From Bryum argenteum (Eukaryota; Streptophyta; Bryopsida; Bryales; Bryaceae), in contig CM073326.1 of the NCBI GenBank assembly GCA_037043015.1, forward strand, positions 19,476,345 through 19,540,344: a stretch of DNA of 64,000 nucleotides, given 5' to 3'. This document shows positions 10,123 through 61,408 of the stretch, in pieces. The notes under the pieces are model-generated. The model had not been told where the DNA came from. It ran no database searches and was given only the letters and a program-made list of their open reading frames with translations. How positions within the stretch are numbered: the stretch's first letter is position 1; each line of letters starts with the position of its first letter. The position numbers and the translations under genes are program-made.

Positions 10123-10777
10123 TATATGGACCAATCTAGTAGTGATAATGGAAGTTTCGGTACAACATTGTTAAGTTTCAGTACAACATCACGATACTCA
10201 GTGCCTTGAAGATAACGGGTGTGACTAGAAGGACAATGGAGAGAGAGGAGTAGAGAGCGGATAGGACCAGATCTGGTGTCGTAGCAATGCTGCAATCGTA
10301 ACGCGTGTGTGCGATTTGTGTTAGGAGTGATCTAACCGCACCACGAATGCACACAAAGCGTAGGTAGTGAAAGTGGTGGAATGAGGGTTTGAGTTGTTGG
10401 AGTTGTTATTGTAGATCTGAAAGCGGGCTGGGAAATAGACCTTAGATCCAACATTGAAAGGCTTGAAACTACCAAGAGCTTAGGATTTCGAGTGCTGAAA
10501 TCGCTGCAGGCCAGATCTGGAACCTAGACGCAGTTTAGACGCAGATCTGATTTCAGAAATTTTGCTGTCGCCGCCGGCGACATTGGTGATTCGTTTGCAA
10601 GAGAGAAGAGCGACGACGCGCGCAGAAGAGACGGCCGTAGAAACACTCGATCTACAGGTTTCAGGTAAGAACCTAACCCTAAACTCGTTTTTGCTCATTG
10701 AATTGAAAAAGAAACTAGTAGCAAAGATTGTATGTGCTGAAATTAGGTCAAGAGCTTACAATCTGTATACAGCCCCT

Positions 10778-12499
10778 ATGTACGCGCAGAAGGGAACAGA
10801 TTGGAAGCAGAATAGCCTGATTAGTATACAGACCAAATCGTTGAAAGAAAATACAGAAAAAACAAAGAAAAAATTGGATTTGCAGATGGCGCACAGGGGG
10901 AAAGCTGTACACGCAGCCATTATGACAGAAAGTACACCGGGGAAAATGCTGGACACAAATATGGCGGAAGCGGATGACGATTGCAAAGTTACACAAATCG
11001 AAACTCAACATACGAAAAGAAACCAGGAAGGATCCGGAGGAAGCGGCAGCAAGAGGAAGAAGAATGTAGCAGCAATCGAGGAAACGCCGAAGACATTCTG
11101 GTTGGGGTTTGTAGCTATGGAGCAGTTGGCGCTGAAAGAAGGAACTGGTGAAGCTGAAGGATTGAGAAGCAAAAGTGTGATGGAGAAAGTGAAACAGGGT
11201 TTCACGAAGGCTGAAGCTGAAGAATTCCACAACGCAGGAAGATTGGCGTTTCCACATGTGCAGCAGAAGCTGTACCCGATGGAGAGACCCGACGGCAGAG
11301 GTGGGCAACATTACAAAATTACTCAACTCCCAATCGAGACGGAAGTGGATACGTCTAGCGGGTTGTCGCTAGACTATCATGTGGCTGTCTTTTTTGAAAG
11401 ACCAGCAACAGACTTCACACACGGAGAAATTCTTACGAGATGCAAAGAAAGACTGAAAAGGATAGAAATTGAAGTCGGGGAGAATATGGCTGAACCGATC
11501 TACATTCCGTGCAAGGAGAAGGTGAAGGGGTCGAAACAAAAGTTTTGGACAGGGACCATCAAAATCCACCTGAAGCATCCGAAGATTGACGGAATCGCCC
11601 TGCTTAAAGGGAATAGAGCATTCATTTTGGAGTTGGACCACGATTTGACAACCGTTGAGAAGGTATGCAAAAGCTGGGATTCTATTGCACGGAACACATT
11701 GCTGTCGGCGAAAATTGATAGCGCAAAGTTGGAAGGGGTTACCGCTGCAGAACTCCAACGGGACATGCTCAGAGAGAGTTTCAGAAGAGGACATGATTAC
11801 GAGATTTCCAGCGTACAGAAGAGTGAAGGGGAGACCTGAGGCTGGCTGGTTGCTACAAGCCCGACTCAGGTTGACAAAATCATTCAATACCAGGTACCAT
11901 ACGAAAACGAACTGCTTCACGTGATCACACCGCAGACTGCAAAGGCGGAACGTGGCGCTAGAGGAGAAGGACTGACGGAGGAGGAATTGAAGAAGAAGAA
12001 TGCTACGATGCTGTGTTTATACGGATTGCACAAAATGAAGAAAGTCGAGGAGACAAAGACGTCAATCGAAGCTGCAATGGGGGAGAAGAACATACTGACA
12101 TTCTTCTTCCCGGGGCAGGTTGGAAACCTGCACAAAGGGGCAGCCAACGTCCAGTGCCTGAACCCCATTGTATATCGACAATGGGTGGGGAAGACGAAGG
12201 AGATCATGGGGAAACACGTAAGTTTCATTCCACACCCTCGCAGTTTAGAAGGCAGTCTACCTCCTAGTAAAGAAGACCAGGAGAGATTTGGGTTTTGTGA
12301 CATTTCTACCGTCATTGTGAGTACAATGGAGGCAGCACAGAACGCACCGAAGGAGAAACGGAACAACATTACTCATGGAGAAATCGCGGAGCTGGTGGAG
12401 AAAGCCGTTAGCAAGGGGAACGAGAAACTGAAAGAGGAAATGCACAAGGAGCTATGTAACAGGGCAAGAACTAGATTTTTGTGTTTGCTAGAAAAGTAG
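10778..12499 (+). pseudogene. LINE ORF1, one in-frame stop
   Basis: The frame is open from 10562, but the first in-frame ATG is at 10778 (MYAQKG), with another at 10886. One TGA at 11837-11839 interrupts it, after which the same frame stays open to 12499. Basic and Lys/Glu-rich near the N terminus (SKRKKNV). Two blocks look like folded domains: one around FWTGTIKIHLKHPKIDG, one around NVQCLNPIVYRQW and FIPHPRSLEG. The C terminus is Glu/Lys-rich and probably coiled coil. The likely role is RNA binding in the retrotransposition particle, as for other LINE ORF1 proteins. The stop could be a CGA-to-TGA change. Confidence 0.7.
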
Positions 12500-12582
12500 A
12501 TAGATAGTTGAAACCATTTTAGGAGTTTTTAGAAAATTTTAGAATTTGAGGTAGATGGCCTATGTGGGACCCACCATAGAAG

Positions 12583-12734
12583 CTTCGAGAAGGTGGGGCC
12601 CACCTCTAGAGTCTTCTAGAAGGGCGGTTATCTAGGTGGGGCCCACCTCTAGGACCTTCCGGAAAGTTCCATGGTGGGGCCCGCCATTGGAACATTCTAG
12701 AAAGTTCCAAGGGCGGTTAGGCAGAGTATAAATA
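12583..12734 (+). promoter_or_regulatory. Heat-shock-type promoter: HSE array plus TATA box inside the LINE
   Basis: Alternating nGAAn/nTTCn units form heat-shock elements: a perfect four-unit HSE at 12689-12708, a three-unit HSE at 12656-12670 and two-unit pairs at 12583-12592 and 12613-12622. TATAAATA follows at 12727-12734, 18 bp after the best HSE, the spacing of classic plant small-HSP promoters. GTGGGACC and GGGGCCCAC motifs between them fit class-I TCP sites. A pyrimidine-rich leader follows. Whether this is part of the LINE or captured host DNA is unknown. Confidence 0.7.
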
Positions 12735-12911
12735 GAACTGGCCGGGGCCATTTGGAGGCATTCGGTCAGGTACGCCTTAGTCCCTCTGTCTCAGTAAAGT
12801 TTGGTTTGTACTTTGCTTCTTTAGTTCTGCTTTGTTCTGTTCTGTTCAAGTCTATTCGGTCTTGTTTAGCCCGGTTTTCTCAAATCTTGTTAGGTTAGCA
12901 GTGTTTGAGTT

Positions 12912-13121
12912 GTGACCAAAGAGAGAATTCAGTCCCGTTTCAAGCTAGGAGTATTCAAGGAAGAGATTGCGAAGGAGGCCAACCTTCATGCCCAAAAGTT
13001 GACGGAAGAGCTACATAGCTCAATGCAGATGCAAATGGAAGAAGTGAAGAAACAACTCAGGGCTACCATCCAAGCAGTTGACATTTTCTGTGCCATTCGA
13101 AAACCTCAATTGAAAAACTGA
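12912..13121 (+). pseudogene. Coiled-coil-like fragment downstream of the HSE promoter
   Basis: An open frame of about 69 codons without its own good ATG (it opens on GTG). Glu/Lys/Gln-rich heptads (KEEIAKEANLHAQ, MQMEEVKKQLR) suggest a coiled coil like the end of ORF1. It may be a displaced part of ORF1 or a second small protein of the element. Function unknown. Confidence 0.35.
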
Positions 13122-13539
13122 TATGGAAAAACAACCTGCAGCAATGGTTAGAGGATGGCTTGAGTTTTTGCAGGGAACGAAGGCTACCAGAGAGAAGAAG
13201 AAGCGCGAAACTGGACAGCAATATATTACAGAGTACATGCAGAAGGAAAAGCTATAGGATAGAGAAGGGTTTCAGCAGATGCAGTATATGGCTGAAGAGG
13301 CAAATAGTAGATAGAGTATATAGGAGGAGGATATTATATAAGAAAAAAACAAAAAAGATATGCAATAAAAAGGTAATACAGATTACCAAAGATTTCTCAG
13401 AAAAGATATTGATAAAAGGAAAAGAAAAAGACCAAACAAGAATGATATCAAAAACGCAGAGTAACGTGAGAATTAATGAGTGCGTTGAAGGAACGATAGC
13501 GGGGGGGGACGAAGCCCGCCACAGGCCCCAAAAATAGAT

Positions 13540-14166
13540 TTACTAAAAATAGAAAATACCGACACGGTAAATCTAGAAAATACCGACACAGTAAATCTAA
13601 AAAATACCGACATGATAAATCTAGAAAATACCGACATAATAAATCTAAAAAATACCGACATAGTAAAACAAGAAAATACCGACATAGAAAAACAAGAAAA
13701 TGCGGACATAATAAAACAAAAAAATACCGACATAGTAAAACAAAAAAATACCGACATAGTAAATCAAAAAAATATCAACATAATAAATCAAAAAATACCG
13801 ACATAGTAAAACAAGAAAATACCGACATAGAAAACAAGCAAATGCCGACATAATAAAACAAAAAAATACCGACATAGTAAAACAAAAAAATACCGACATA
13901 GTAAATCAAAAAAATACCAACATAATAAATCAAAAAAATACCGACATAGTAAAACAAGAAAATACCGACATAGAAAAACAAGCAAATGCCGACATAATAA
14001 ATCAAAAAAATACCAACATAATAAATCAAAAAAATACCGACATAGTAAAACAAGAAAATCCCGACATAGAAAAACAAGAAAATGCCGACATAATAAAACA
14101 AAAAAATACCGACATAGTAAAACAAAAAAATACCGACATAGTAAATCTAGACAATACCGACATAAA
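13540..14166 (+). repeat. 24-bp coding minisatellite, about 26 units
   Basis: Units of 24 bp built on AAATACCGACATAGTAAAAC. Read on the plus strand most units encode an octapeptide of the form KQENTDIV (variants NQKNTDIV, KQENADII). Period 24 keeps the frame, so expansion does not close it. Units differ at a few positions and some are slightly indelled. It lies inside the LINE, between the ORF1 side and the surviving RT end. Confidence 0.9.
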
Positions 14167-14224
14167 AGAAGAAAATAGAAGACAAAAAGTAAAAGTAATA
14201 GGAGGGAAAGAAAAAACAAAGAAA

Positions 14225-14646
14225 GTGAATAGAAATTATAGTAATAATGAATATCCCTTTACCTACAAAACAAAATATATAACATATTACTCCACACAAC
14301 CGACCCTCAACATTACTATAAAAAAATACTTTACATATAAAAATAAACGTAAAAATCCAAAATTCTACTACCTTTTATATGATAACAAAACAATCCTATT
14401 AATATGCAAATATATAGAATCAAATCGGGACCACGCATAAACATGACACTCGCTCAACCACGCATAAACATGGATATAAAACATTTTCCGAACATAAACC
14501 AAAAACAAACATACTAGAAATAGAAATATTCAAGATAGTAACAAGAGACTGCAATTATTTGGAATCAAACATCAACCTATTTTTAGAAAACCTATTCTTT
14601 AAAGTTATATATTTTCCAACCAAAATAAAGCTTTTCAAAATATCTA
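14225..14646 (+). pseudogene. Damaged LINE ORF2 stretch before the RT thumb
   Basis: An open piece at 14225-14440 is Lys/Tyr/Asn-rich, with no recognised domain. A 16-bp direct repeat, ACCACGCATAAACATG, occurs at about 14430 and again 27 bp later, a possible deletion scar. Around 14600-14690 another frame reads like the start of an RT thumb (TKIKLFKISIVNTVFTY). The RT finger and palm motifs should lie here and do not. Confidence 0.4.
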
Positions 14647-16803
14647 TTGTTAACACCGTCTTCACATATGTGCCCACAAAGACTCTCAACACATACTATT
14701 ATAAATACAATGATTGCATATAGTTTTTATGCGGTACCTTACTCATTACCCACTATTAAAAAATTAGACAAAAAAATTATAGCAATACAAAAGAAAATAT
14801 GCGGGCTACCAAATTGCACCCCCAACGTAATCACCCAACTCCCACACGATATGTTCGGTATAGAAGCATTCTCATTAAAAAACGTCTATCTTAGATGCAT
14901 TGGTGAACAACTACGCAATGCTCTCAACGACACAGGAAAATTGGGAATAATCTATAAAGGTCTTACACATTTTATACTTGCTAAATACGGTGGAGCAAAA
15001 GAGATCCACAGAATTAAACAACATGACTGTTTAAGATCACCCACAACAAGAACACTCTACCTTATCAAACGATGTGGAGGTGCCCACCTGAGAAGTACAA
15101 TAGGAGACTTTCCACTTGAAGCCACATCCCTTGAACACATGTGGCTAAACTTGTCTTCAGAACTATTACCACATCTCACCCCTAAACAAAATCATAAACT
15201 TCTTAACAAATTATTACTTCAAAACATATATGAGATAAAACACTTAACACTGCCAAATGGTCTAAATCTAATGTCACATGATGAATTCAAAACATATTAT
15301 CAAACACCAACAAAAGTAATAAAACAAGCGCTACATACAGCCCAACAACTCTTTTGCTATCTTACATGTAACCAACAATGCCTAAATCCATACATCGAAC
15401 ACACTGCACCAAGAACTCTAAAACATGAATATAGAACACATAACCATTATATTGTACCTAACCACGGTACAAACCCTATACACCTACCAACACCGCTACA
15501 CCCCCCTTATCCGAAACCACCAATTAGAATCATCAATAACCCATCCACATTCCCCATACATACAATATTAGACCATAAACAAATCAAAACAATAGACAAA
15601 TACAAAATTTCAAAAACATACAACACTTACCTATGCCAATGGAAATTACCAAATGATATCACATATATCAAATGGATACCACAAAAAGACCTCTTCCCAA
15701 TAAACATACCACTAACCATACAACACAACACCTCGCTGCTTACTCAATATTACACCACAAAACAACATACATACTATAGAAACATAATAGATACCCATTT
15801 TGCAGAAGAACAATTCCGCGACACAAGACACATACTTCCAACAATGCTTGTCCCCCTTATAAATATTAGTGTAAACGAATGTAACCCTTCAAAAGATATT
15901 AACACCAACCAAAACACCATACAAATAAAAGATGATGTAGCACATCTTTATGATATAACAGGAAAACACATCATAACCATACCTATAATGAGACTAAATT
16001 GGCTATGGAATCAATACTCTGAAGCAAAAGATCTACCACATGGATTGACACCTCCCACACAACCGTTTGAAACAGAAATTGTATGGCTATACCAAAGATA
16101 CAAATACAGAATCCCAAAAACCGACCCACTTAAACTTGCACACTACTCCTTGCCAAAACTATTACTCGACCACATCATAACATCGTTTAATATAACACAC
16201 TCATATTTCTCCTCACCAATAACATGCTCAACTCAAATAAATAAATTTTACTCACCATTTAAAAGGGACAAAATTTTTGGAGCTATAGGGCAAGCATTTT
16301 CTTACAAATGGAAAGGAATTGGATATGCCCACCCACATAACAGAATAGATACCCAAAAAGCTATACATTGGGCTAGACTTGCCGCACAAAACAATCCAAA
16401 CAACATCACCATAATAATCACCCCCGACGACAATTGGTACCATAACCTAACACCACATAAAGGCCCCTATCCAGACACACATGTTGTTACATACATACCT
16501 GCAGATACAATAATATATGAAGAACCAACAAAACCACCAGAATTTACCAAACCACGGATAGAACCTTCCGCTCTCCACATATTTTGTGTACATCACAAAA
16601 CCACCACTGTAGGAAATAATACACAAATCACCGCCTTAACCACAATCTTTAATAAACTCCAAATCCCCCAACCATACATACAAATTGCCCCTTCAACACA
16701 ACCAAATATACAAGTCAACAAAAGCAAAGAATGGAACAAACTCATATATCCAACTGAAAACTCAGTTACATACCATAATATACCATCAATTCCTAGTTTT
16801 TAA
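14647..16803 (+). pseudogene. LINE ORF2: RT thumb and connection region
   Basis: About 718 codons open. The first part resembles the region after the RT palm in LINEs (INTMIAYSFYAVPYSLPTIK, KLDKKIIAIQKKICGLP). The rest is a long Pro/Thr/His-rich connector of unknown fold. The opening triplet is TTG, so this is a continuation of a longer frame and not a real start. It is out of frame with the RNase H piece that follows (stop at 16801-16803, next frame shifted by one). Confidence 0.65.
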
Positions 16804-16826
16804 ACGAAAGACAACCTAAATTCCTA

Positions 16827-17824
16827 CCACAATATCGCTTATTATCTTCGACGGCTCATTTCTCCCACCACAAAATATGGGCACCCACTGGACCCGTGAA
16901 ATTACAGGATATGGAATATATAATGAATCCAAAAACATCGAACAAGCTGTAAGACTCCCAGGTTTACAAAACATATTTAGGGCTGAAATAATGGCAATAT
17001 ACACGACCCTTCAAATAATTTCCTCCAAATACCCTGATGAACCTGCACACATTTTCACAGATTGTTTGAATGGTCTATATAATATCCAAACACAACTCAA
17101 ACACCCTACCCAACATAATAACCACCCAGACAAAACCATTCTACAAGATATAGTTACACTTCTTCAAGAAAGAACACAACCTACATCACTATACAAAGTA
17201 CGAGCTCATGCAAATATAGATGGTAACGAAAAAGCCGACAAACTAGCCAAAGAAGGTAGAGACAAAGATTACCACAATGCAACTTTACCACATGAATTCG
17301 CACATTCTACACCATATTACTTTCAAAGAGACTCGTGGCACTCTATGGATGAAACGCCAGATAAAGGTCCCATAAGATACCTTGAAAAACACATTATTAA
17401 ACACGACAAGGAAAACAACTTAACAGACATTGCTAGAAACTTCCCCAATATAGATAAATGGATAAGTAACACTGACATAGATGATAAACTATCAAATGAA
17501 TTTTGGACTAATAAACAAGTAACAGACTCCCAAAAAACATGCCTGCTTAAACTAAGACACGGTCAATACATGGGCAACGCTAGAAAACAATTATTTTTTG
17601 GCAGAGAACTATATCCATCAATCACATGTTCGGTATGTGACTCCCAAGATCCAGACACATGGCTACATGTACTGTTAAAATGCAAGCAACACCATATACA
17701 TGCGCTCAGAACAAAAAGACACAATAAAGCAGTATGGGAAATTAAAAAACTAATAGTCTCATCAAAACAGTCGAGATGTTATACCCTCATGAATGCGGGC
17801 ACATGTAATGATAAACCACCGTAA
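16827..17824 (+). pseudogene. LINE ORF2: RNase H domain and CCHC-like tail
   Basis: RNase HI fold with all four acidic positions visible: IIFDGS (D), RAEIMAI (E), IFTDCLNGL (D) and the closing HANIDGNEKADKLAKEG (D), with the catalytic His just before. It would degrade the RNA of the RNA/DNA hybrid. A Cys/His cluster follows (CSVCDSQDPDTWLHVLLKC), as in many RNase H-bearing LINEs. The domain itself has no stop; damage lies on both sides as frame changes. Confidence 0.8.
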
Positions 17825-17828
17825 AAAT

Positions 17829-18302
17829 ACGGTCCCACCATGGCTATTACCATGTACTTGTGTACAACAAAGATGCCAATGTAATGCACGACTAAAACCG
17901 GACCTACTATGTATACAAGGATTACCCTACCAATCAAACCCCCATACATCTCCCAACATTAATTTAAAGGTTCAATTTATAGAATTTACATACTGTAATG
18001 ACAGATTCTCACCAGACACCATTGAGAGAAAGATGCAAAAATACCAACCTCTCATCAACGATATTATTAACAAAGGATGGATAGTTGAACCACTAATAGT
18101 AATAACAGCAGGTGCCAGAGCATCCACATACATTCCATCTATGAAAATCCTCAAAACCAAACTCAAAATACCAAAGACACTCATAAAAAATACATTCAGA
18201 GAAATAAACACAATTGCTATACACCATGCCATGTCTATAATACTACACAAGAGAAAACTAGAAAATGGAGAAACATTACCAGCAGACATACAACCACCAT
18301 AG
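17829..18302 (+). pseudogene. LINE ORF2: putative PD-(D/E)XK nuclease C terminus
   Basis: Cys-rich start (PCTCVQQRCQCNARLKPD), then PD, FIEFTYCND, and ERKMQKYQPL. The order Cys cluster, PD, E-x-T, K-x2-KY fits a restriction-like endonuclease as in early-branching LINEs. It is in another frame than the RNase H piece and overlaps its end near 17793-17824. An almost identical copy of the last 95 codons is at 60623-60909. Nuclease activity is inference from motif order. Confidence 0.55.
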
Positions 18303-18756
18303 ATATATTATATAAAAAAAAAAATTTAAAAAAAAAAAAAAAGAAAGAAAAAGAGGAAGAAGTGATATATTAGAATTGCAACCTTGTCACAATACAGGGG
18401 GCCCAAGCCGTTGGAATTTCCTGCCCACTAGCTCTATAGCGCCAGATGATTGTAAACGATGCTCAAACGAGTTAAACGGGAATCGAACCCGGACCACCGC
18501 TACTACACATCCATGTCTCTTCCAAACAACGTGGTATGTCAACAATGTGACGACCAACAAAACCAAACCTTTACTTTTATACAAACATAACAGCTCACTA
18601 GTTCTGGGTCCTTTTTTCATGTAGTGTCCACCCTGAGAGGGGTTAGTAGTCCTATACCACTGTTGTTAGGTCCTGTGGGCATATCATCAAGGGTAGGTCG
18701 AACGGACACTTTATTCACGCCAACCCTTACGGGTCTGGTGTTCTTCTTCTTCTTCT
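18303..18756 (+). other. LINE 3' UTR with antisense tRNA-like B box
   Basis: About 450 bp, shared with 60910-61408. It holds GGTTCGATTCC, a perfect Pol III B box, on the minus strand near 18482-18494, within a T-arm-like CGGGTTCGATTCCCG. The last 125 bp (TAGTGTCCACCCT...GTGTTCTTC) are also the SINE tail. It ends in (TTC)n. Confidence 0.75.
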
Positions 18757-18813
18757 TCACGATACTCAAATTCTAGTGCAGAATGAACAATTTTTAGCAA
18801 GATTTCACATATC

Positions 18814-37200: not shown

Positions 37201-38086
37201 TTTAACTTTGTATGCAAAATTATGTATGTATGTACATGTGAAAATTTAAGATATTATTGATTGAACCACAAAATATGGATCTTATTTACAGCACCCCAAT
37301 TTCTTGCTGTTGGAGATATAGCCGGTGTTGTGCATATTTTGGAAATTCCAAGAAGTCTTCGTCGTTCAACTCACAAAGAGGTTAATAGAGCATATTACAG
37401 TAATAACTATTACTTTACAGTGTCCACCCTGAGAGGGGTTAGTAGTCCTATACCACTATTGTTATGTCCTGTGGGCATATCATCAAGGGTAGGTTGAGCG
37501 GACACTATATTCACGCCAACTCATAGGGGTCTGGTGTTCTTCTTCTTAATAACTATTTACAGACTTTGTTTTCTAGTTTGATAATTATTTTCCATTTGCA
37601 TTGTGATTAGATACTTGATTTGAAAGATATTAACCAAACTTACAAGTTGGATGATAATGTAGAAACCTGCATTCAAGAACTTTATGCTGAGACAACAAGC
37701 TTGGCATGTTGATGTGGAAAGACGAGCTGCAGGACGTGAAGCTGAGATTGCAAAACGAAAAGCCATTTACGATGAAGAGAAGGTGATCTTGCATATTATT
37801 AATTCGAGGTCGATCTTTGACCGCATGTTGTCATATGTGTTGTTTGATAATTGAATAATTTTCAATTTATCATGAGTATGCTTTCTTATAATCCTTTACT
37901 CTTATGTTAATACATCAGGAACGAGAACTTCAATTCTATAAAACATGCACATGGGATGATGCAGCTGAAGATAGATATCTTAAATTTGAAGAAGAATGTC
38001 GACAAAAGTTTCGTAATGGTGAACACAATGCTTCTTCGGCTGAGTCAAGTCCTCCTACATCTCCAAAGCCGGATTCTCCAACATGA
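31208..38086 (+). CDS. Axonemal inner-arm dynein intermediate chain (IC140/WDR63/DNAI3-like)
   Basis: WD-repeat intermediate chain of inner dynein arm I1/f, which in plants works only in sperm flagella. Exons read: 31208-31301, 31511-31701, 31838-31948, 32074-32187, 32368-32523, 32661-32828, 32907-33023, 33143-33254, 34015-34212, 34599-34688, 34804-35016, 35324-35392, 35775-35978, 36417-36590, 36946-37147, 37292-37380, 37663-37782, 37919-38086; about 860 residues. Marks of the family: PEEHPPGVVSLYIS, ATSDFFAIKDS, ALQQNEVFDLFEDEF, then WD blades (IDWMPGKRG, YVLLWSFADPVHPW, IIFWDI, WTFALWKDD, GTIEIWDL) and a charged coiled-coil tail. The junction 32828/32907 is off by two bases in my reading, so a micro-exon or a lesion may be there; the exon near 37611-37663 is also uncertain. 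Introns hold MITE and LINE pieces. Confidence 0.85.
34271..34539. mobile_element. Degenerate TTAA-type MITE in a dynein intron
   Basis: Left end TTAACCCCTAAATTTCCTT; right end GGAAAGTTAGGGGTAAAA inverts to a similar word but the border is no longer a clean TTAA. It sits between exons 34015-34212 and 34599-34688 and holds the AACCGTAAGATCTC motif at about 34375. Confidence 0.5.
35127..35320. repeat. Solo TTAA-type MITE end in a dynein intron
   Basis: One TTAACCCCTAAAGGCCCC end at about 35127 followed by an AACCGTAAGATCATG word. No matching right end before the next exon. Confidence 0.4.
36137..36302. mobile_element. Hairpin MITE in a dynein intron
   Basis: Two arms of about 72-75 bp, nearly perfect inverted copies, around a 20-base loop: left from ACACTTGACATGGGGAGTCA, right ending with its inverse. 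Transcribed RNA would fold as a long hairpin. A half copy with the same words (CAATCACGTTGAGAGGATTTTTG, ACTCCCCGTGTAAAG) is at about 46960-47030. Confidence 0.8.
37421..37546 (+). mobile_element. 5'-truncated LINE/SINE tail in a dynein intron
   Basis: A 126-bp copy of the shared LINE 3' end (TGTCCACCCTGAGAGGGG ... GTGTTCTTCTTC). Flanked by the near-identical words TAATAACTATTACTTTACAG (left) and TAATAACTATTTACAG (right), a target duplication. Same orientation as the gene; splicing should remove it. Confidence 0.8.
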
Positions 38087-39987: not shown

Positions 39988-42398
39988 CTATCCAGCTGCA
40001 AGAACAGGACCTCCACCGGCTGCGACCATGTTCGCCATATTCTTCTGTACATCCACTTCCCTCTGCTGGCTAACCTGTACATCCTGCAATAACACTGAGC
40101 TAAGCAGATCGACCAGAGCATCGACTATGCTGAAATGAAATGAAATGAGAAATGAAATATCACCCCGCTATTCACCCCATTCTGAAAACATGTAAGCGAT
40201 GCGATTGAAGATAGCCTCCCTAGTGTTTGGCTTGGAACAAAATGTACCTAGTGTACAACAGCAATAGATATTATGTTGGCCAAAAATTGAAAGCATTCCA
40301 CCTTAGATTACTATTTAAGCGACGAGAAGGGCGAAGATGACGTACCCCTTGAGGAGGAGCATTTTCTACATTATGCTGCAGCCCCGACATCTGGAGCTGT
40401 TGTTGATGCTGCGGCATCATCTGTTCTCTCACAACACACCCTTCTCACTTCAGCTCAGATGTTCTCACCAAGCCCAAAAATCGAAAAGTATTTGTACAAC
40501 CAAACAACCCCGTCAAATCACCCCGCACCATGAACCTTCTTGATAATTTGCAAATAGGAAAACACTTTACACCAAAAGTGTCTAGCTTACTTGCGGTGGA
40601 TGCATCATCATTTGCTGTTGGCCTCCGCCAGGAACTGGCAGGTTCTTCGACAGGTCCCTCAACACCCCCTGCCAACACAATACACGCACCACGTACGTCA
40701 GCGAGTACTCTCACACTGTCAATTTCACCAACTCACATTTTCGAGATCTGAGTCTACAAACATACACAAGTTTCTTCCATCTCCTCACCTTGTTGGCCCA
40801 CATCAGCCCACACGCGTTGCACAGAGTTCGAGGTCCCGCTGGTCCTCGTCGCATCATTGGAGTCGACCGCTCTCCAATCCCACAATGTACGCACCTGCCA
40901 ATCGTGCAACACCATCTCATCAACAACTTCCATGTCCGTTTCCCATGACCAGAACCGTTGCCATCCTCCGCAGGCAATCCACAAACCAAAACCACGCCGA
41001 TACATCACCACTACATGATACAGCTCAGTCACTTACATCACTTCCGGCTGGACTCCTCCTGTTCCCAACGGCTGCCCAGGAGCTTGCACGCCGTCCCAGT
41101 TCGCAACAACTGCACCCTCCTCCTGAGCTGGTCGTGACGACGCAAACTGCCCTTTCTTGCGCTGCATCCTGAACAAACTCTCGCATACAAATCATCAGAA
41201 AAACTCTCGTATAGTAACGACCGTCACTGCCGGTTCTAAGACCGGTGCGGTAACCTAACCAACACTACTGCATTCCTTCTTGTTTTCAATCTTCTCAACA
41301 TGGCTCCTTTCCATTACTGAAGCAATGGCACGTTCCTACACTGTCTTCATACACGAGGTATCACGGGCGAACTCAGAATATACACTACCTTTGAGCAACT
41401 TCTTTGCGGACGGTATACCGAATCCTCTTATCGTAGCATCGTTCTTTGCGCTTCTCCCGAAATCTCGTCAAAGATGCTAGCCTCTGCGGCATATTCATCC
41501 GTGCCGGTAGCTCTGTCATACCCTGAGTAGGAGTTCAACTTGCAACATCAATTCTCGCACTTCATGTCGTACCCTCACTCACACAACAGCCCTCTCTTAA
41601 AAGGCAAGGACCAATAAAGTTTCCTGTAAGCCAGCTCGTGATAAATGGACAACATATCGACCAGTGTTACAATTCCTACCTTGTGGTGATGATTGCTCGA
41701 TACATTCACACCTGACATGCCTGGAGGTATCTCGCGGCCGCCCAATAAAAGCAGCACAGCCTGGACCTGCAATCATACGTTCACCCATTTCTTATGATCA
41801 AATCCCCAACACTACTACAAATCAATGCTCCAACACAATCACCAAATTAAACATCGAAACAGGTCTACGAAGATGCATCACAGCTCCTACTGCAACATGC
41901 CGTACACATATATATCAAAACGTATACACACACGGTATGTGTGATTGCTGCATCCAAGTGTTCAAGGAAAGACGATCGTACCTTCTCAGGAGGCACGGTA
42001 TCGAACACATAAACTTCGCCCTGGTAAGATAAAGTCAGCTGAGTGGAGCCCTGCGTGCGCGCAGCCAGAGGAACAGGTTGATCGCCCGCGTGCCCACCGC
42101 CATCCGAGTGCATGTCAGCCTCATCCAGCCCTTCCTCATCGCCCGCGTCGTCGTCGGGCTCCTCCCCTCCCGTTCCATTCTCGTCGTTGCTGTGCATGTG
42201 GTGGCCATGCATATGGTCTACCTCTAGATGCCCCTGCCCTCGTTGGTCCTGTCCATCTTCGCCATGGACGTGCATTTCGTGCATGGCATGGCCCAATCCA
42301 TGATTCAAGCTATGCTGATGGAGACTGTTGTGCAACTGCATGGATTGAAGATGATCTGCTTCTGACATCCCTCCTACATCTACTTCCTCGGAGCTCAT
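39988..42398 (-). CDS. TIFY-CCT-GATA transcription factor (ZML type), left copy
   Basis: Nuclear GATA factor of plant class C. Eight exons in phase: 41982-42398, 41680-41766, 41389-41522, 41037-41168, 40789-40894, 40591-40668, 40346-40420, 39988-40083; 374 residues. Acidic/His-rich N terminus; TIFY motif TLSYQG with [15 protein letters not shown] domain ([25 protein letters not shown]); GATA finger C-x2-C-x20-C-x2-C ([17 protein letters not shown]); Gln-rich tail ending GGGPVLAAG. Intact. It is the inverted paralogue of the gene at 54045-56522 and differs at a few residues (Val8, Met before the first finger Cys, three near the C terminus). The long open frame opposite exon 1 is a shadow. Confidence 0.95.
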
Positions 42399-43830
42399 TC
42401 AATCCTGTGGCCCACACTGATTGGAAAGCGGATGCTTTTGACAAGCCCAGAATCTACATAACGTGGAATTTCCTCCTCTGCTTTTCAAACCACGGCACTA
42501 ATTCCTACCCCCACAGTAATTGCAGGGAGTGGTCTTCCAAGCGCGCGCTGCCCTCAGCGCCGGACCATGAAAAGTCAAACTACTACCACCTAGTTCTCCA
42601 TGAACCATGTCATCAGAGACACCGAACGATCCTGCATCCTTGATATAAAATTCTACCGCCACCTGGCACAAGAGCATCCAAATACCTACGGTCAGCGACA
42701 TACAAGAAGCCAAAATCAAATAAAAGAGAGAGCAACGTGGCGATCATCTACGATGAATTGCCCTGACTATTGGATAACTGTTATTGAGGTTTGACACCGC
42801 TCCGTAATACTCTCTCAATAGAACATACACTCAATGAGCTCTCTGTACCTCGTAATAAGACTGACACCCGATGACCCTGATCACAACAACAAAAGCAAGG
42901 AACGAGAACCCGCTCAATGTGCAAAAACAACCCTAATTTGCAGCTCGAGACCTAAATAAAACCTAACCTTGCATTTCTCAATGCAATTTCTCTGCTCAGA
43001 AGTCTAAATGATCTCCAACCAAATTGCAGTATGAAACTCTCCGACGCATTGAGCGATCCATGGTACGGTTTTCGGGTATTTCGTTGCATTGAAAAGAGGG
43101 GAACAGGAAAAAAACCCAAGAACAAGCCAGAAGCGCTTCAAAATCGATCGTCAAAAATCATTGTTCAAGTTCGTGACCCAACCTAAACGAAGGCGTTCGC
43201 GCCAGCAATGGGATCAAATAATAACCCAGTTTGAAAAGTGAAGGTGACGGAACCTGAGAAAGGACAGCGTTATGTCATGGCCGGCACTAGAGAGGCGAGG
43301 GGCGAGGTGAAAGCATTGCAGCCTCCAAAATGCAAGAGAGGGAGGGAGGGAGGGAGGGAGGGAGGGAAGGAAAAGGAAGGAGAGTGCAGGTGGCGGGAGG
43401 GTGTGAAAACGTGGGAAAGTGAAGCTCCGACCAAGGTATGGCAAGGAAGGGGAAGGGAGGGAAATGCACGACCAATTCTCCGACGCGAGGTGAGTTTGAG
43501 GTGCGGCGAGACTCTCGCGCGCTGGGCTGGGCTGCCTGCCTGACTGCCAGGGACACAGGCGTGACGGATTGATGAACCCCGACGAGCGGCCGGGAACGGA
43601 CGACGACGACGGCGACGACGGCGACTACAGTGTCAAGGAAGGAAGGAAAGGACAGGCTCCGTTGGGTGGAAAAGGAAAGGCGGGGAGTCCCGGAAAAGCA
43701 GGGCCTCTCTTGTTGAGCCCGCGCTGCCCCGAGGCCCAGAGGGTTCTGTGAACTTGGTTCCTTTTTGGCCTGAGGAGGCGCCTTTTACTGTTGGTTGCTC
43801 TACTTTTATCTCTGTTCGTCGGAGTCCGCC
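42399..43830. promoter_or_regulatory. Upstream region and leader of the left GATA gene
   Basis: Minus-strand leader sequence up to about 42600 is alignable with the leader of the right copy (TTTCATGGTCC, GTGTGGGCCACAGGATT) but clearly diverged. A (GGGA)n run at about 43337-43372, six GGG tracts on the plus strand, could form a G-quadruplex near the promoter. GA- and CGA-rich DNA continues to about 43690. Confidence 0.5.
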
Positions 43831-49714: not shown

Positions 49715-50902
49715 CTAGTAGTCTCCATCCCATCCAAACTCTGCAGGATTATCATGTTGCTCTCCAATGACTTGGAAGGTGAAGTCCATGCGCCTTCTAT
49801 GTAGGAAGTTAGTTAAAATAGCCGCTGATTTGAATAAGTAGCTGTACTTTGGCTTTGTTGAATCAAACCTTTTCATAAGGCGCCTCCATTTTCTCTTCAG
49901 TCCGCCTATTCCCCATTCCACTTGAACTCTGTACCCTGCATGTATTTTGTTGTAAGCTCTGATAGCAGGTGCATCTCCATCTCAAGCCAACTCCCGTCTT
50001 CCAAACCTTCGCATGATGTACATCTCTTCACCCATGTAAGCTGGATCTCCTAACAGGTACTCAAAATACTCCTCCTTGTGTGTAAAATACTCCCGCCAAT
50101 TGTTATGGATCTCAGAGTGGCGCAGAAGAGTCACATCATGGAATGAACCAGGGTAGCCAGAGTCTACATAGATAAATAGACCATGGTGATCAACAATGAC
50201 TATGTTGTTCATGCAATACATCTTCTTGCGCCCGTTGAACCATGTCTTGTGTTCTTCATTGTTCCAAGGCCTTCGAATCTCCACTAGAGCCCCATCAATA
50301 ATCCCAATGCAACCTTGAAATTGAGCAATCTCCGTACCTAGTGTAACTCTCTCCTCCATTGTTGGCCATCGTATTTCATTTGCTAGTGCATCATTGATGC
50401 AAGATGCAATGAAGAGAGTATCATCACATAAAGCACTCTTGGACCAATTCCACATGAACGCATCGTGCATGGTAGTATTATCATGTTTCAAGAATAAAAT
50501 GAAACTCAGAAGGCGTTGCTCAGGGGTCAACTTGTAAGGTTTACCTGGAAGAATAGGAGCTTCATCAGTAGTTCTAGTTGAACTCTTGATGGTAGGCACA
50601 ACAATGGATGCAAGCTCATCAAACTCAGCAAGAGTGAAATTTGTCAAAGTCTTGAAAAGCGCTGGAGTTGCCCTCATCGTAGCCAAAACATCACAAACGG
50701 CAACATTTGGATCCACTGATTGCCCCGCACCCGCCTCTACCTCATGTCCAAAGAAATGCTCAGTACTATTTGCCACACCAAGTGTGCAAGCCAGAATCTT
50801 CATGTCGTCCATTTCATCGTAACTGCTAGAAGAAGACGTAGAGTCCATAGAGGAGGTAGAAGAGGAGCTAGAATACTCATCAGAGTTAGCAGGAGGCTCC
50901 AT
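49715..50902 (-). pseudogene. Harbinger DDE transposase, one in-frame stop
   Basis: About 394 codons in one frame from ATG 50902 (MEPPANSDEYSSSSSTSSMD) to 49715, broken only by TGA at 49982-49984. Ser/Asp-rich N terminus, helical region (LTPEQRLLSFILFLKHDNTT), then the DDE_Tnp_4 fold: first Asp in GCIGIIDGALVEI, second in YVDSGYPGSFHDVTLLR, DPAY, and the final Glu in VQVEWGIGGLKRKW. The third acidic residue lies after the stop, so the protein ending there would be inactive. CGA-to-TGA by cytosine deamination is a likely cause. Confidence 0.85.
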
Positions 50903-51120
50903 GCTTGTGACAACAAAAAAGACCTTCAATTCTACAAGCTTCGGCCTCATATAGAGTGATTTGGTCCCCAGTTTACATCTGGTCCCCAATTTCGTGCATT
51001 TGGTCCCCAGTTTGCTCTACTTAGCGGATAACCGAAAACTGGGCACGAAACGACCGACTGGGGACCGACTGGGGATCGACTAAGGTCCAAACTGGGGACT
51101 ACTTAGCGGATTTCTCTAAT

Positions 51121-52253: not shown

Positions 52254-54044
52254 GCACGAAGTACCTTATAGCCTCTTCCTTTGGATTTAGATGTACCTAT
52301 GGTGCATATTTAGATTGATTGATTTTTGGTATACATGTGAGTTTCACCTCAAAAAACTATAACTAGGTTACCATAAACTCGGAATAGGTATTTCCAATTG
52401 ATCTAGTCTCCTATATACTTTGCGCATTTTCCAAAATTGATTCCATGAACCAATCCCCAACAAGCTTGCCAATCTGAAATTTGAACAGTTATAAAGTCTC
52501 GTAGCTTTTGAACATAAGTGTATGGACACCACTGTGGGATACACCGTGTCAACAGACCATTGGCCGTGACCATCTGAAACTGACGTGGAAACCCAATTAC
52601 AAGGCGGACCTGGGGATATGCTGACAGGGACCCTTACAGGGTGGAGCCGGCCACGGAAGGCGTTGCAGGGCCCTCGGACCCGCGGGAGTGCGGTTTTGAC
52701 CGCCTAGCATGTTCCCGTCCAGGGTCCCCTCTCCCGTGCTCCGTACCCTAACCACGTTCGCAATGTTCCCGCTTCCGTTCTCAAGGTTCCCAACGGTGGT
52801 GGCTGGCAATTGGCGAGGGATGGCGCTCGATCGGGTTCAGCAAGCTGGAGGCCACGAATTGGTGAGGGAGGCCCGCCTGCCTGCCTTTCGTCTTTCGTCC
52901 CGTCCCTCAATCCGCGCCTGCGCGCGACGCCACAGCCCCTAGCCACTCCCGATTCCTCACTGTTGTCGCATTTCCGCGGTCGGAGCTCTTTACTCGCCCT
53001 TCTCGCACCTGGATTTCCTCGCATTTCATGGGTCGTCGTCGCATTCTGCTCACCAGGCTTTGGGCATGCGCTCCCAGTTTGCCGTTTCACTGCCGCCTAT
53101 GACTCTTCTCAGGTTCCCTCCCTCAACCTCATATTTTACTTTTGCTCAATACCCTCTGCAACCCCTTCATCTATTTCAGTGGCGGCGATACTATGATAAG
53201 ATCAGGAAAGATTCGCGGGCGTTCGCGCGATCGAAGCTGTTCCGCTTTTTTCTTTCCGTCCCGTCTTTCAAAAAAATTGCTAGTTTTTTCGCATCAACGC
53301 CACAAGTTCAGTGAGAACCGTCTTATTACGTTGGATATCATATTCTTTCGCCTCCGTTACTTTAATTCCGGGGTATATGCAGAGTGAGCTTTTTATTTTC
53401 TTTTGTGTTCAAGTTGTGGAGTTGCAGCATTTGGTCTAGTTTAGGTCGAATTGTGTCTTTGGAGCTCCAATTTAGGGCTAGAGGACGACCGGTTTGCTAT
53501 TTTTACTTATCACAATACTACCTACACGGTTCAGGCGTTTCTTTTCATATATTTTGTCATTATCGCCGTGATGATCCCCTCTGAGGTTTGATTGTTTACC
53601 TTTCTGGGAGGAGATGTACTATAATTTTCGAAATCAGGACAAGCTCCGATTAATGTTCGTTTCATAATTTAAGCAGTCAGTCGTTTAGCAATTTAGCTTC
53701 GCAAAAGCTTCAAAGTTTTCCTCATGAGGTAACTGATAATACAAGCGGACATCTTCCAACGTTTCCGTGCCGTTCTCTAATAGCGGGGGTGTGTACCTAT
53801 GGCAGGTCGCGGTGCAATCGGCTGTTAAAGGATTTGCTCTCATCGAGGAGACGATAGGTGCAAAATTTCATGGTGGAGCATTCGAGTTGCTGAGGATAGC
53901 GCGCTTGGTACCCCTTTCCCTGTTGCGGCGGAATAATTTCTATCGAGTTATTCTCTGCGTTGACTAAGCTATGAAGATTTTAGGCACATAGGAAGTATCC
54001 GCTTTTCAACGAGTGTGGGTCACAGGATTACAGACAGGTGGTGA
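52254..54044 (+). promoter_or_regulatory. Upstream region and leader of the right GATA gene
   Basis: GC-rich promoter-like DNA at about 52600-53100. A leader intron probably ends at the ACAG at about 54028-54031, before ATG 54045. Sequence at about 53870-54025 matches the leader of the left copy inverted, with many differences and a short insertion (ACAGACAGGTGGT) next to the ATG. No TATA box was chosen. Confidence 0.45.
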
Positions 54045-56522
54045 ATGAGCTCCGAGGAAGTAGATGCAGGAGGGATGTCAGAAGCAGATCATCTTCAATC
54101 CATGCAGTTGCACAACAGTCTCCATCAGCATAGCTTGAATCATGGATTGGGCCATGCCATGCACGAAATGCACGTCCATGGCGAAGATGGACAGGACCAA
54201 CGAGGGCAGGGGCATCTAGAGGTAGACCATATGCATGGCCACCACATGCACAGCAACGACGAGAATGGAACGGGAGGGGAGGAGCCCGACGACGACGCGG
54301 GCGATGAGGAAGGGCTGGATGAGGCTGACATGCACTCGGATGGCGGTGGGCACGCGGGCGATCAACCTGTTCCTCTGGCTGCGCGCACGCAGGGCTCCAC
54401 TCAGCTGACTTTATCTTACCAGGGCGAAGTTTATGTGTTCGATACCGTGCCTCCTGAGAAGGTACGATCGTCTTTCCTTGAACACTTGGATGCAGCAATC
54501 ACACATACCGTGTGTGTATACGTTTTGATATATATGTGTACGGCATGTTGCAGTAGGAGCTGTGATGCATCTTCGTAGACCTGTTTCGATGCTTAATTTG
54601 GTGATTATGTTGTAGCATTGATTTGTAGTAGTGTTGGGGGTTTGATGATACGAAATGGGTGACTTGCAGGTCCAGGCTGTGCTGCTTTTATTGGGCGGCC
54701 GCGAGATACCTCCAGGCATGTCAGGTGTGAATGTATCGAGCAATCATCACCACAAGGTAGGAATTGTAACACTGGTCGATATGTTGTCCATTTATCACGA
54801 GCTGGCTTACAGGAAACTTTATTGGTCCTTGCCTTTTAAGAGAGGGCTGTTGTGTGAGTGAGGGTACGACATGAAGTGCGAGAATTGATGTTGCAAGTTG
54901 AACTCCTACTCAGGGTATGACAGAGCTACCGGCACGGATGAATATGCCGCAGAGGCTAGCATCTTTGACGAGATTTCGGGAGAAGCGCAAGGAGCGTTGC
55001 TACGATAAAAGGATTCGGTACACCGTCCGTAAAGAAGTTGCTCAAAGGTACCGGTCTTATCTGGTTGTGGTGCATGAATGTAATGTAGGATTTTACCATC
55101 GCTTCCGTAATGATATGGATGAAGACGGGTTGGAATGCAGTAGGTTGGTTAGAGCACCCAACCCGGTCCCAGAATTGGCAGTGTTGCTCGTTATGAGATC
55201 AGCGTTGTGGACAAGGAGTATTCTAATGATCTGAATGTGAGAGAATGTTCAGGATGCAGCGCAAGAAAGGGCAGTTTGCGTCGTCACGACCAGCTCAGGA
55301 GGAGGGTGCAGTTGTTGCGAACTGGGACGGCGTGCAAGCTCCTGGGCAGCCGTTGGGAACAGGAGGAGTCCAACCGGAAGTGACGTAAGTGACTGAGCTG
55401 TATCATGTAGTGGTGATGTATCGGCGTGGTTTTGGTTTGTGGATTGCCTGCCAAGGATGGCAACGGTTCTGGAAAGGAAACGGACATGGAAGTTGCTGAT
55501 GAGATGTTGTTGTACGATTGGCAGGTGCGTACATTGTGGGATTGGAGAGCGGTCGACTCCAATGATGCGACGAGGACCAGCGGGACCTCGCACTCTGTGC
55601 AACGCGTGTGGGCTGATGTGGGCCAACAAGGTGAGTAGATGGAAGAAACAGGTGGGCTTTACATGAATGTTCAAAGGGTGTTGAAAGGAGCTAATGGAGG
55701 TTGTGCATGCAATGTGGACAGGGAGTGTTGAGGGATTTGTCGAAAAACCTGCCAGTTCCTGGCGGAGGGCAGCAGCAAATGATGATGCATCCACCACAAG
55801 TAAGCTAGACACTTTTGGTGTAGAATTTTTTTCCTACTTGCAAACCATTGAGAATGTTCATTGCTAAGGGATGATGTGATTGAGCTATCTGCTCGTTCTT
55901 AGTCGTGGACTAAGTGAGAACACGATAGCTGACGAGAGTTCGTTGTGGGGATGGAACAGATGATGCCGCAGCTTCAGCAACAGCTCCAGATGTCCGGGCT
56001 GCAGCATAATGTAGAAAATGCTCCTCCTCAAGGGGTACGTCATCTTCGCCCTTCTCCTTGCTTGTGTTGAACCGTGATACTAATATGGCATTGCCGGAAG
56101 AAGAGCCCATGCAAGCAGGAGTGTTTATTTAAATACAATTATAGTTCCATTGTGGTCAGTACGCGTTGCCGTAAGGCATTCACCGGCCTAACGCACCGGT
56201 TGTTCCCGACTGTGTCGGCAGCCCGTGGTCCGGGGGTCGAGTCCCGTGGTCGGTCTGGTCGTGTCCGTGGTTGTCTAGAGGTCGAGTCTAGGTTAGGGTG
56301 TTGCTTCGCAATTGGTTATTGGCTCGTGTTACGAAGCGTCGCCTGCAGTGAAAGTACAGGTCCAGACAAGATTCTTGTCACGAACTTTTTTCATGATCTG
56401 AAGGGGAGTTTGTTTATGTGTAGGATGTACAGGGAAGTCAACAGCAGAGGGAATTGGATGCCCAGAAGAACATGGCAAACCTGGTGGCAGCTGGTGGGGG
56501 TCCTGTTCTTGCAGCGGGATAG
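54045..56522 (+). CDS. TIFY-CCT-GATA transcription factor (ZML type), right copy
   Basis: Paralogue of the minus-strand gene at 39988-42398. Eight exons in phase: 54045-54461, 54670-54756, 54914-55047, 55253-55384, 55525-55630, 55722-55799, 55960-56034, 56424-56522; 375 residues. TIFY motif TLSYQG at residues 122-127, continuing in exon 2 ([17 protein letters not shown]). CCT domain about 181-224. GATA finger with Cys258, Cys261, Cys282 and Cys285 (C-x2-C-x20-C-x2-C, class C). Gln/Met-rich C terminus ending GGGPVLAAG. Acts in the nucleus; in Arabidopsis, TIFY-CCT-GATA proteins serve in light and growth responses. Intact. Intron 7 is longer than in the left copy and holds an insertion. Confidence 0.95.
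56120..56345 (+). repeat. Possible tRNA-like insertion in intron 7 of the right GATA gene
   Basis: A GC-rich block absent from the left gene's intron 7. It has an A-box-like GTGGTCAGTACGC (about 56151) and B-box-like GGGTCGAGTCC (about 56235) and again GGTCGAGTC (about 56280). It could be a tRNA-derived SINE of another family. No cloverleaf or target duplication was found. Confidence 0.3.
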
Positions 56523-60622: not shown

Positions 60623-61408
60623 ACACCATTGAGAGAAAGATGCAAAAATACCAACCTCTCATCAACGATATTATTAACAAAGGATGGATAGTTGAACCAC
60701 TAATAGTAATAACAGCAGGTGCCAGAGCATCCACATACATTCCATCTATGAAAATCCTCAAAACCAAACTCAAAATACCAAAGACACTCATAAAAAATAC
60801 ATTCAGAGAAATAAACACAATTGCTATACACCATGCCATGTCTATAATACTACACAAGAGAAAACTAGAAAATGGAGAAACATTACCAGCAGACATACAA
60901 CCACCATAGATATATTATATAAAAACAAAATAAAATAAATTAAAATTATTAAAAAATAATAATAATAATAAAAAAAAAAAATAATAAAAAAATAAAAATA
61001 AAAAATGGAAGAAGTGATATATTAGAATAGCAACCTTGTCACAATACAGGGGGCCCAAGCCGTTGGAATTTCCTGCCCACTAGCTCTATAGCGCCAGATG
61101 ATTGTAAACGATGCTCAAACGAGTTAAATGGGAATCGAACCCGGACCACCGCTACTACACATCCATGTCTCTTCCAAACAACGTGGTATGTCAACAATGT
61201 GACGACCAACAAAACCAAACCTTTACTTTTATACAAACATAACAGCTCACTAGTTCTGGGTCCTTTTTTTCATGTAGTGTCCATCCTGAGAGGGGTTAGT
61301 AGTCCTATACCACTGTTGTTAGGTCCTGTGGGCATATCATCAAGGGTAGGTCGAACGGACACTTTATTCACGCCAACCCTTACGGGTCTGGTGTTCTTCT
61401 TCTTCTTC
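60623..61408 (+). mobile_element. 5'-truncated LINE copy, 786 bp
   Basis: Starts inside the nuclease-like end of ORF2 and runs to the same (TTC)n tail. Flanked by an 11-bp duplication TACGAGAGCCA at 60612-60622 and 61409-61419. The coding part (60623-60909) matches 18015-18302 almost base for base; the A-rich stretch after it is different in length. Recent insertion from the same LINE family. Confidence 0.93.

Follow-up and report, generated by a model that had tools for sequence, protein, structure and literature searches.

A heat-shock-type promoter block within a LINE of Bryum argenteum is most likely the U3 region of a nested solo LTR

A promoter-like block rich in HSEs lies within a defective-looking LINE in the 64,000-nucleotide stretch of Bryum argenteum DNA that was analysed here (the window). 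We propose, with a probability of roughly 85%, that this block is the U3 promoter of a solo LTR (12455–12942) that is nested in ORF1 of the LINE and whose internal region has been lost by recombination. On the strength of its motifs, the LTR probably comes from a heat-activated retrotransposon. The original prediction was of a heat-shock-type promoter belonging to the LINE; the promoter architecture is borne out by our analysis, but its assignment to the LINE is not, as the block sits in a unit with LTR-like ends of its own, a 5-bp duplication, and a flanking ORF1 whose frame is restored when the unit is removed. Since the unit is most likely the solo LTR of another retrotransposon, the block represents a known kind of element rather than a new kind of LINE promoter.

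Four HSE arrays, made of alternating nGAAn and nTTCn units, follow one another between positions 12579 and 12707, with three, two, three and four units in that order (Table 1). The four-unit HSE that had been predicted at 12689–12708 is present, the array itself spanning 12690–12707 and its pentamers 12689–12708. The predicted three-unit HSE and half HSEs also exist as motifs, although in fact they make up two three-unit arrays and one two-unit array, and the start that had been given for the block cuts into the first of these. The sequence TATAAATA is found where it was expected, downstream of the HSEs and separated from the four-unit array by 19 bases; it occurs four times in the whole window. 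Arrays of at least three units thus stand upstream of a TATA box, which is the arrangement of an HSE-bearing LTR. Along the block the HSEs, as defined by the general rule for such elements, take turns with GTGGGNCCC motifs, which are of the TCP type. Such motifs between the HSEs were part of the original prediction, and one of them, GTGGGNCCCAC, has its three occurrences in the window (12564, 12593 and 12636) inside this block, with a variant at 12674. As was also first described, the block is flanked by the ORF1-like frames on one side and the ORF2-like frames on the other, and shares its strand with these LINE coding parts.

The HSE motifs are real and far above chance, contrary to the possibility, raised beforehand, that similar sequence would hold as many. 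In the region 12540–12760 we count 12 HSE units, the longest array having four. None of 5000 dinucleotide shuffles of this region reached 12 units (mean 0.19 units) or contained a four-unit array, and an array of three or more units appeared in five of the 5000. At the scale of the window, one four-unit, three three-unit (two of them in the block) and 56 two-unit arrays are present; 20 whole-window shuffles yielded no four-unit arrays, the means per shuffle being 1.3 for three-unit and 46.85 for two-unit arrays.

Table 1. Positions of the LTR-like unit, its motifs and the surrounding LINE in the window
Feature	Position	Strand	Basis
Probable 488-bp solo LTR with TG...CA ends, within LINE ORF1 and oriented like the LINE	12455..12942	+	ends, duplication, reading frame
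Left target-site duplication AGCTA	12450..12454	+	
Right target-site duplication AGCTA	12943..12947	+	
U3 module A: GTGGGACCCAC - HSE (3 units) - GTGGGGCCCAC - HSE (2 units) - GGGCGGTTA	12564..12630	+	
U3 module B: GTGGGGCCCAC - HSE (3 units) - GTGGGGCCCGC - HSE (4 units) - GGGCGGTTA	12636..12719	+	
HSE, three units	12579..12591	+	motif scan
HSE, two units	12614..12621	+	motif scan
HSE, three units	12657..12669	+	motif scan
HSE, four units (4P type)	12690..12707 (pentamers 12689-12708)	+	motif scan
TATA box TATAAATA	12727..12734	+	motif; putative start from spacing, about 12757-12765
Presumed R-U5, T-rich	12758..12942	+	composition; putative role
Host LINE, read as defective, with ORF1, a tandem array of 24-bp units, the C-terminal part of ORF2 including RNase H, and a (TTC)n 3' end	10201..18758	+	
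LINE duplications ACGATACTCA	10191-10200 and 18759-18768		
LINE ORF1, left part, two frames, shift near 11839	10562..12454	+	
Right part of LINE ORF1 (57 codons, coiled-coil-like), continuing the frame of the left part once LTR omitted	12948..13118	+	

The unit that contains the block has the ends of an LTR. It begins with TGTAACAGGG and finishes with CCCGTTTCA, giving the TG...CA termini of LTRs, and seven of its ten terminal bases match in inverted orientation, TG/CA included. AGCTA is present on both sides, as a 5-bp target-site duplication. Such a combination is not rare in its own right: if the boundaries are sought in wide ranges, some pair of TG...CA ends with a 5-bp repeat is found in 770 of 5000 random windows. 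Within narrow ranges centred on where the coding signal is lost and where it returns, 12455/12942 is the sole pair; 257 of 20,000 random placements of these ranges gave a pair by chance, and across the same placements 11 pairs also had at least 7/10 inverted terminal bases, figures that are guides rather than strict probabilities because the ranges were set after the pair had been seen.

The internal layout of the unit also fits an LTR. R-U5 regions are expected to be T-rich, and T makes up 41% of the stretch downstream of the putative start, compared with 28% of the window. With its TATA box at base 273 of 488, the unit has this motif close to its midpoint, and a near-central TATA box is reported for plant LTRs in a passage of PMC11656987. 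No further copy of the LTR was found within the 64 kb window or in the plasmids collection, nor was there an exact match in viral_contigs to one 18-base motif from it, although these two collections say little about plants; scans for bacterial promoter and terminator patterns, Rfam families and tRNAs gave nothing informative. As neither a paired LTR nor an internal region was found, the identification as an LTR rests on the ends, the duplication and the reading frame, and the absence of a second LTR copy from the window suggests that the internal region was probably lost by recombination between LTRs.

The reading frame is stronger evidence for a nested insertion than the ends alone. When the unit is left out and one AGCTA is kept, ORF1 is open as HKEL/GVFKEEIAKEANLHAQKLTEEL..., that is, ...NEKLKEEMHKEL/GVFKEEIAKEANLHAQKLTEELHSSMQMQMEEVKKQL..., and the target is thereby restored, as it should be if a solo LTR had entered ORF1. 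The rejoined ORF1 runs for 57 open codons past the joint, stops being present in both of the other frames, and the resulting stretch is continuous and, judged by eye, coiled-coil-like. With a codon table drawn from 520 ORF1 codons, the score past the right edge is +11.1 in the rejoined frame versus −21.8 and −6.5 in the others. On the left side, where the table was retrained with the last codons excluded, the cumulative score is highest (10.07) at base 12451, which precedes the proposed left edge by one codon; it then falls to 5.58 and partially recovers to 8.32 by 12496. The right edge is not fixed by the coding signal, as no stop interrupts the coil frame as far back as 12909 and the score over that stretch is flat.

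This coding signal also bears on a second pair of boundaries. An LTR unit with its edges at 12486–12900 and GTGTT as its repeat, or an origin from a small non-autonomous element (a TRIM, for example), would leave the promoter reading the same; the pair resembles LTR ends almost as closely as the first, with TG...CA, the 5-bp repeat, and five matching terminal bases (TGCTA/TAGCA), 6/10 being inverted overall. By phase, however, these edges would place the right part of ORF1 outside the coil frame, in the one with stops and a score of −6.5. The disputed left stretch has a low codon score (−1.95 over 10 codons), and the disputed right stretch is about neutral in the coil frame (+1.0 over 13 codons). 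We have set these edges aside because they do not restore the ORF1 frame, and we regard both forms of this alternative as very unlikely. The promoter is inside an LTR-like unit under either boundary pair.

The element into which the proposed solo LTR inserted has the hallmarks of a LINE, namely a target-site duplication of variable length and a simple-repeat 3' tail. We read the LINE insertion as 10201–18758, with the ORF1-like frames included, because ACGATACTCA brackets this unit. The duplication is 10 bp long, or 12 common bases if two possibly tail-derived ones are counted, and its right copy begins exactly at the end of the tail that is common to a second copy at 60623–61408. In a control that paired random stretches of 200 bp and 60 bp, 77 of 5000 draws had a 10-mer in common; draws less than 400 bp apart were skipped yet counted in the 5000. 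The ORF2 part encodes an RNase H (Pfam E 3.7e-12) and two further 3'-end copies are present in the window, and the element is therefore marked as a LINE. These two copies, at 60623–61408 and 37419–37547, are 5'-truncated and have a TTC-repeat end in common; the former is flanked by its own 11-bp repeat, TACGAGAGCCA, and shares the (TTC)n tail of 10201–18758, while the latter has AATAACTATT near both ends.

Six of the nine forward frames of at least 60 aa in 12455–16810, all except the three in the tandem array, were scanned for a reverse transcriptase and gave no match. The RT domain expected of a LINE is thus missing from the frames scanned, and we read this copy as internally deleted and presumably defective. 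The ORF1-like frames match no known family, so that the label “ORF1” rests on their position, and NCBIfam gave no match for three LINE pieces. The ORF1 pieces have no relatives in viral_contigs, and the ORF2 piece none in viral_contigs or genome_contigs, results that say little about plants since these collections are of virus, prokaryote and plasmid sequences. Searches against solved structures returned nothing useful.

Between the ORF1 and ORF2 remnants there is a 24-bp tandem array of 25.6 copies (13553–14164, + strand) with the unit AAAATACCGACATAGTAAAACAAA. The ORF2 remnant (14629–16803, + strand) has a PCIF1_WW match upstream of the RNase H, at a Pfam E of 3.9e-7 and 30.3 bits, just below the curated cut-off of 31.1. 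Single-sequence structure prediction gave the PCIF1-like segment a mean pLDDT of 34. Our literature search found no paper linking PCIF1 and a non-LTR retrotransposon, looser terms leading to general reviews only.

The window also contains a Dof domain gene (E 2.9e-33), indicative of a plant, and a large inverted duplication, at 40770–42401 and 54042–55649, the pieces of which are 95.6% and 98.0% identical and which carries a similar 177-aa frame in both copies. A frame at 49982–50989 on the minus strand matches DDE_Tnp_4 (E 1.8e-16), and is probably the remnant of a DNA transposon.

Could the block nevertheless be native to the LINE family, as an internal promoter that evolved, or was captured, between its coding parts? 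It does lie within the LINE and in sense orientation. The two other LINE copies in the window both stop short of the block region, and hence they do not count against it. Stress-activated transposable elements of maize, with LINEs among them, mostly carry DREB/CBF motifs according to a passage of PMC11656987, so there is precedent for stress-type motifs in LINEs. Our literature search for a plant LINE with HSEs found none, with none evident by title among the matches listed; preprint servers and most subscription journals were outside its scope. Set against a native promoter is the interruption of ORF1, in which the codon signal peaks just before the unit and the open frame is in phase again after the unit is omitted, as well as the unit's own TG...CA ends and 5-bp duplication. 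Furthermore, target-primed reverse transcription, by which a LINE is copied from its own RNA, does not carry along a promoter that lies upstream of the start site. We therefore consider a native promoter of the LINE highly improbable.

A fragment of a host gene promoter, for example from a small HSP gene or another gene with a TATA box, could alternatively have arrived as filler DNA or by gene capture. HSP gene promoters have HSEs close to the TATA box, much like the block, and a second copy of the LTR is not known; but TG...CA ends, a 5-bp duplication and partly inverted termini are not expected of such a fragment, and the open frame at 12909–13118 has no significant Pfam match to an HSP (best E 0.0036, below the cut-off), and we consider this explanation very unlikely. 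Neither the evolution of the promoter in place nor the capture of an HSP promoter by the LINE, the two origins first suggested, is supported, and the 488-bp LTR-like unit fits better. The comparison with heat-responsive LTR elements that accompanied the original prediction turned out to be the better explanation of the block.

The U3 of the proposed solo LTR contains a duplicated module. Modules A and B are two diverged copies of GTGGGNCCC-HSE-GTGGGNCCC-HSE-GGGCGGTTA, and the two sites of GGGCGGTTA in these modules are the only ones in the window when both strands are searched. Local alignment of A with B has a score of 56, which was reached by none of 2000 shuffled pairs (maximum 37). Compared with module A, module B, which is nearer the TATA box, has eight additional bases in each HSE region, each giving one TTC unit. 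The second HSE has two units in module A and four in module B, by way of this TTC unit and a further GAA unit on the left, whereas the first HSE still has three units in module B, since the left GAA unit seen in module A has no GAA counterpart there.

Among known systems, the nearest parallel is the HSE-bearing LTR of ONSEN/ATCOPIA78 (COPIA78), a copia element of Brassicaceae, which likewise has a four-unit (4P) HSE in its LTR promoter. The HSE form nTTCnnGAAn in ONSEN is supported by PMC3907296 and PMC5059998. In PMC5059998, the 4P site of ONSEN is traced to duplication of an nTTCnnGAAn proto-site, and the 4P type is given as the highest-efficiency class in that element; PMC3907296 describes binding of the ONSEN LTR by HSFA2 in vitro. 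There are several differences. In the Bryum LTR it is a whole HSE/GTGGGNCCC module that is duplicated, with a longer second HSE in one copy; four HSE arrays alternate with GTGGGNCCC motifs; and the LTR is solo, without an internal region. While the ONSEN promoter is described as free of CG and CHG in an excerpt of PMC3907296, the U3 described here has 6 CG and 6 CHG sites on the + strand, and the two LTRs may thus differ in their control by DNA methylation.

How HSEs fare in other copies and families is the subject of further passages in PMC5059998. Across seven Brassicaceae species, putative HSEs in COPIA LTRs correlate there with heat response, with exceptions named by its authors. Functional HSEs are given as absent from all 16 fragments or solo LTRs of COPIA78 in A. 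thaliana. In A. lyrata, at least one putative HSE is given for 15 of 55 COPIA78 copies, 10 copies being full-length, from which it follows that HSEs persist in some incomplete copies. The 3' LTR of ROMANIAT5-2, upstream of APUM9 in A. thaliana, is reported in the same source to bear HSEs and to confer heat response on its neighbour. ROMANIAT5-2 could serve as a model for a solo LTR acting on LINE sequence, although its function was tested and that of the Bryum LTR is read from sequence, and its neighbour is a host gene rather than a defective LINE. PHRE1 and PHRE2 of moso bamboo are LTR retrotransposons studied under heat stress (PMC8656106), and are likened to the present case by description, not by sequence. 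Heat-driven transposon movement in a fungal pathogen is the subject of one work that exists in two versions (PMC12810828 and PMC12139950).

Taking these observations together with the reading as a solo LTR, the following history can be envisaged. An LTR retrotransposon would have entered ORF1 of the LINE copy, duplicating AGCTA, and recombination between its two LTRs would have removed the internal region, so that one LTR was left. While the element was intact, its HSE arrays would have been bound by heat shock factor trimers, and heat would have switched on transcription starting at about 12760, much as it does for ONSEN. It is possible that read-through from the solo LTR makes downstream LINE RNA heat-inducible. 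Such an RNA would start inside the LTR and continue into the ORF1 tail of a LINE with no RT match in the frames scanned, and its ATG-started frames would be of at most 64 codons before the one at 14668. We see no reason to think that this RNA would serve the LINE.

An enhancer in which HSEs alternate with TCP-like motifs is unusual among heat-responsive plant LTRs. A more elaborate proposal, which we put forward as an unlikely but specific one, is that the HSF and TCP-type sites alternating in the duplicated module act as a composite enhancer, tying transcription of the element to heat and to growth-related TCP factors, and that the solo copy, with its HSEs intact, drives a heat-induced, sense, 5'-truncated LINE RNA that keeps the LINE 3' end and might be copied in trans.

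Our analysis replaces a surprising heat-shock promoter of the LINE's own with a nested insertion that can be checked. It also adds a probable heat-responsive plant LTR, in which the HSEs are part of a duplicated module, and in this it parallels the duplication history of ONSEN. Should there be full-length copies that respond to heat, this would be another LTR retrotransposon that has gained heat control by the build-up of HSEs.
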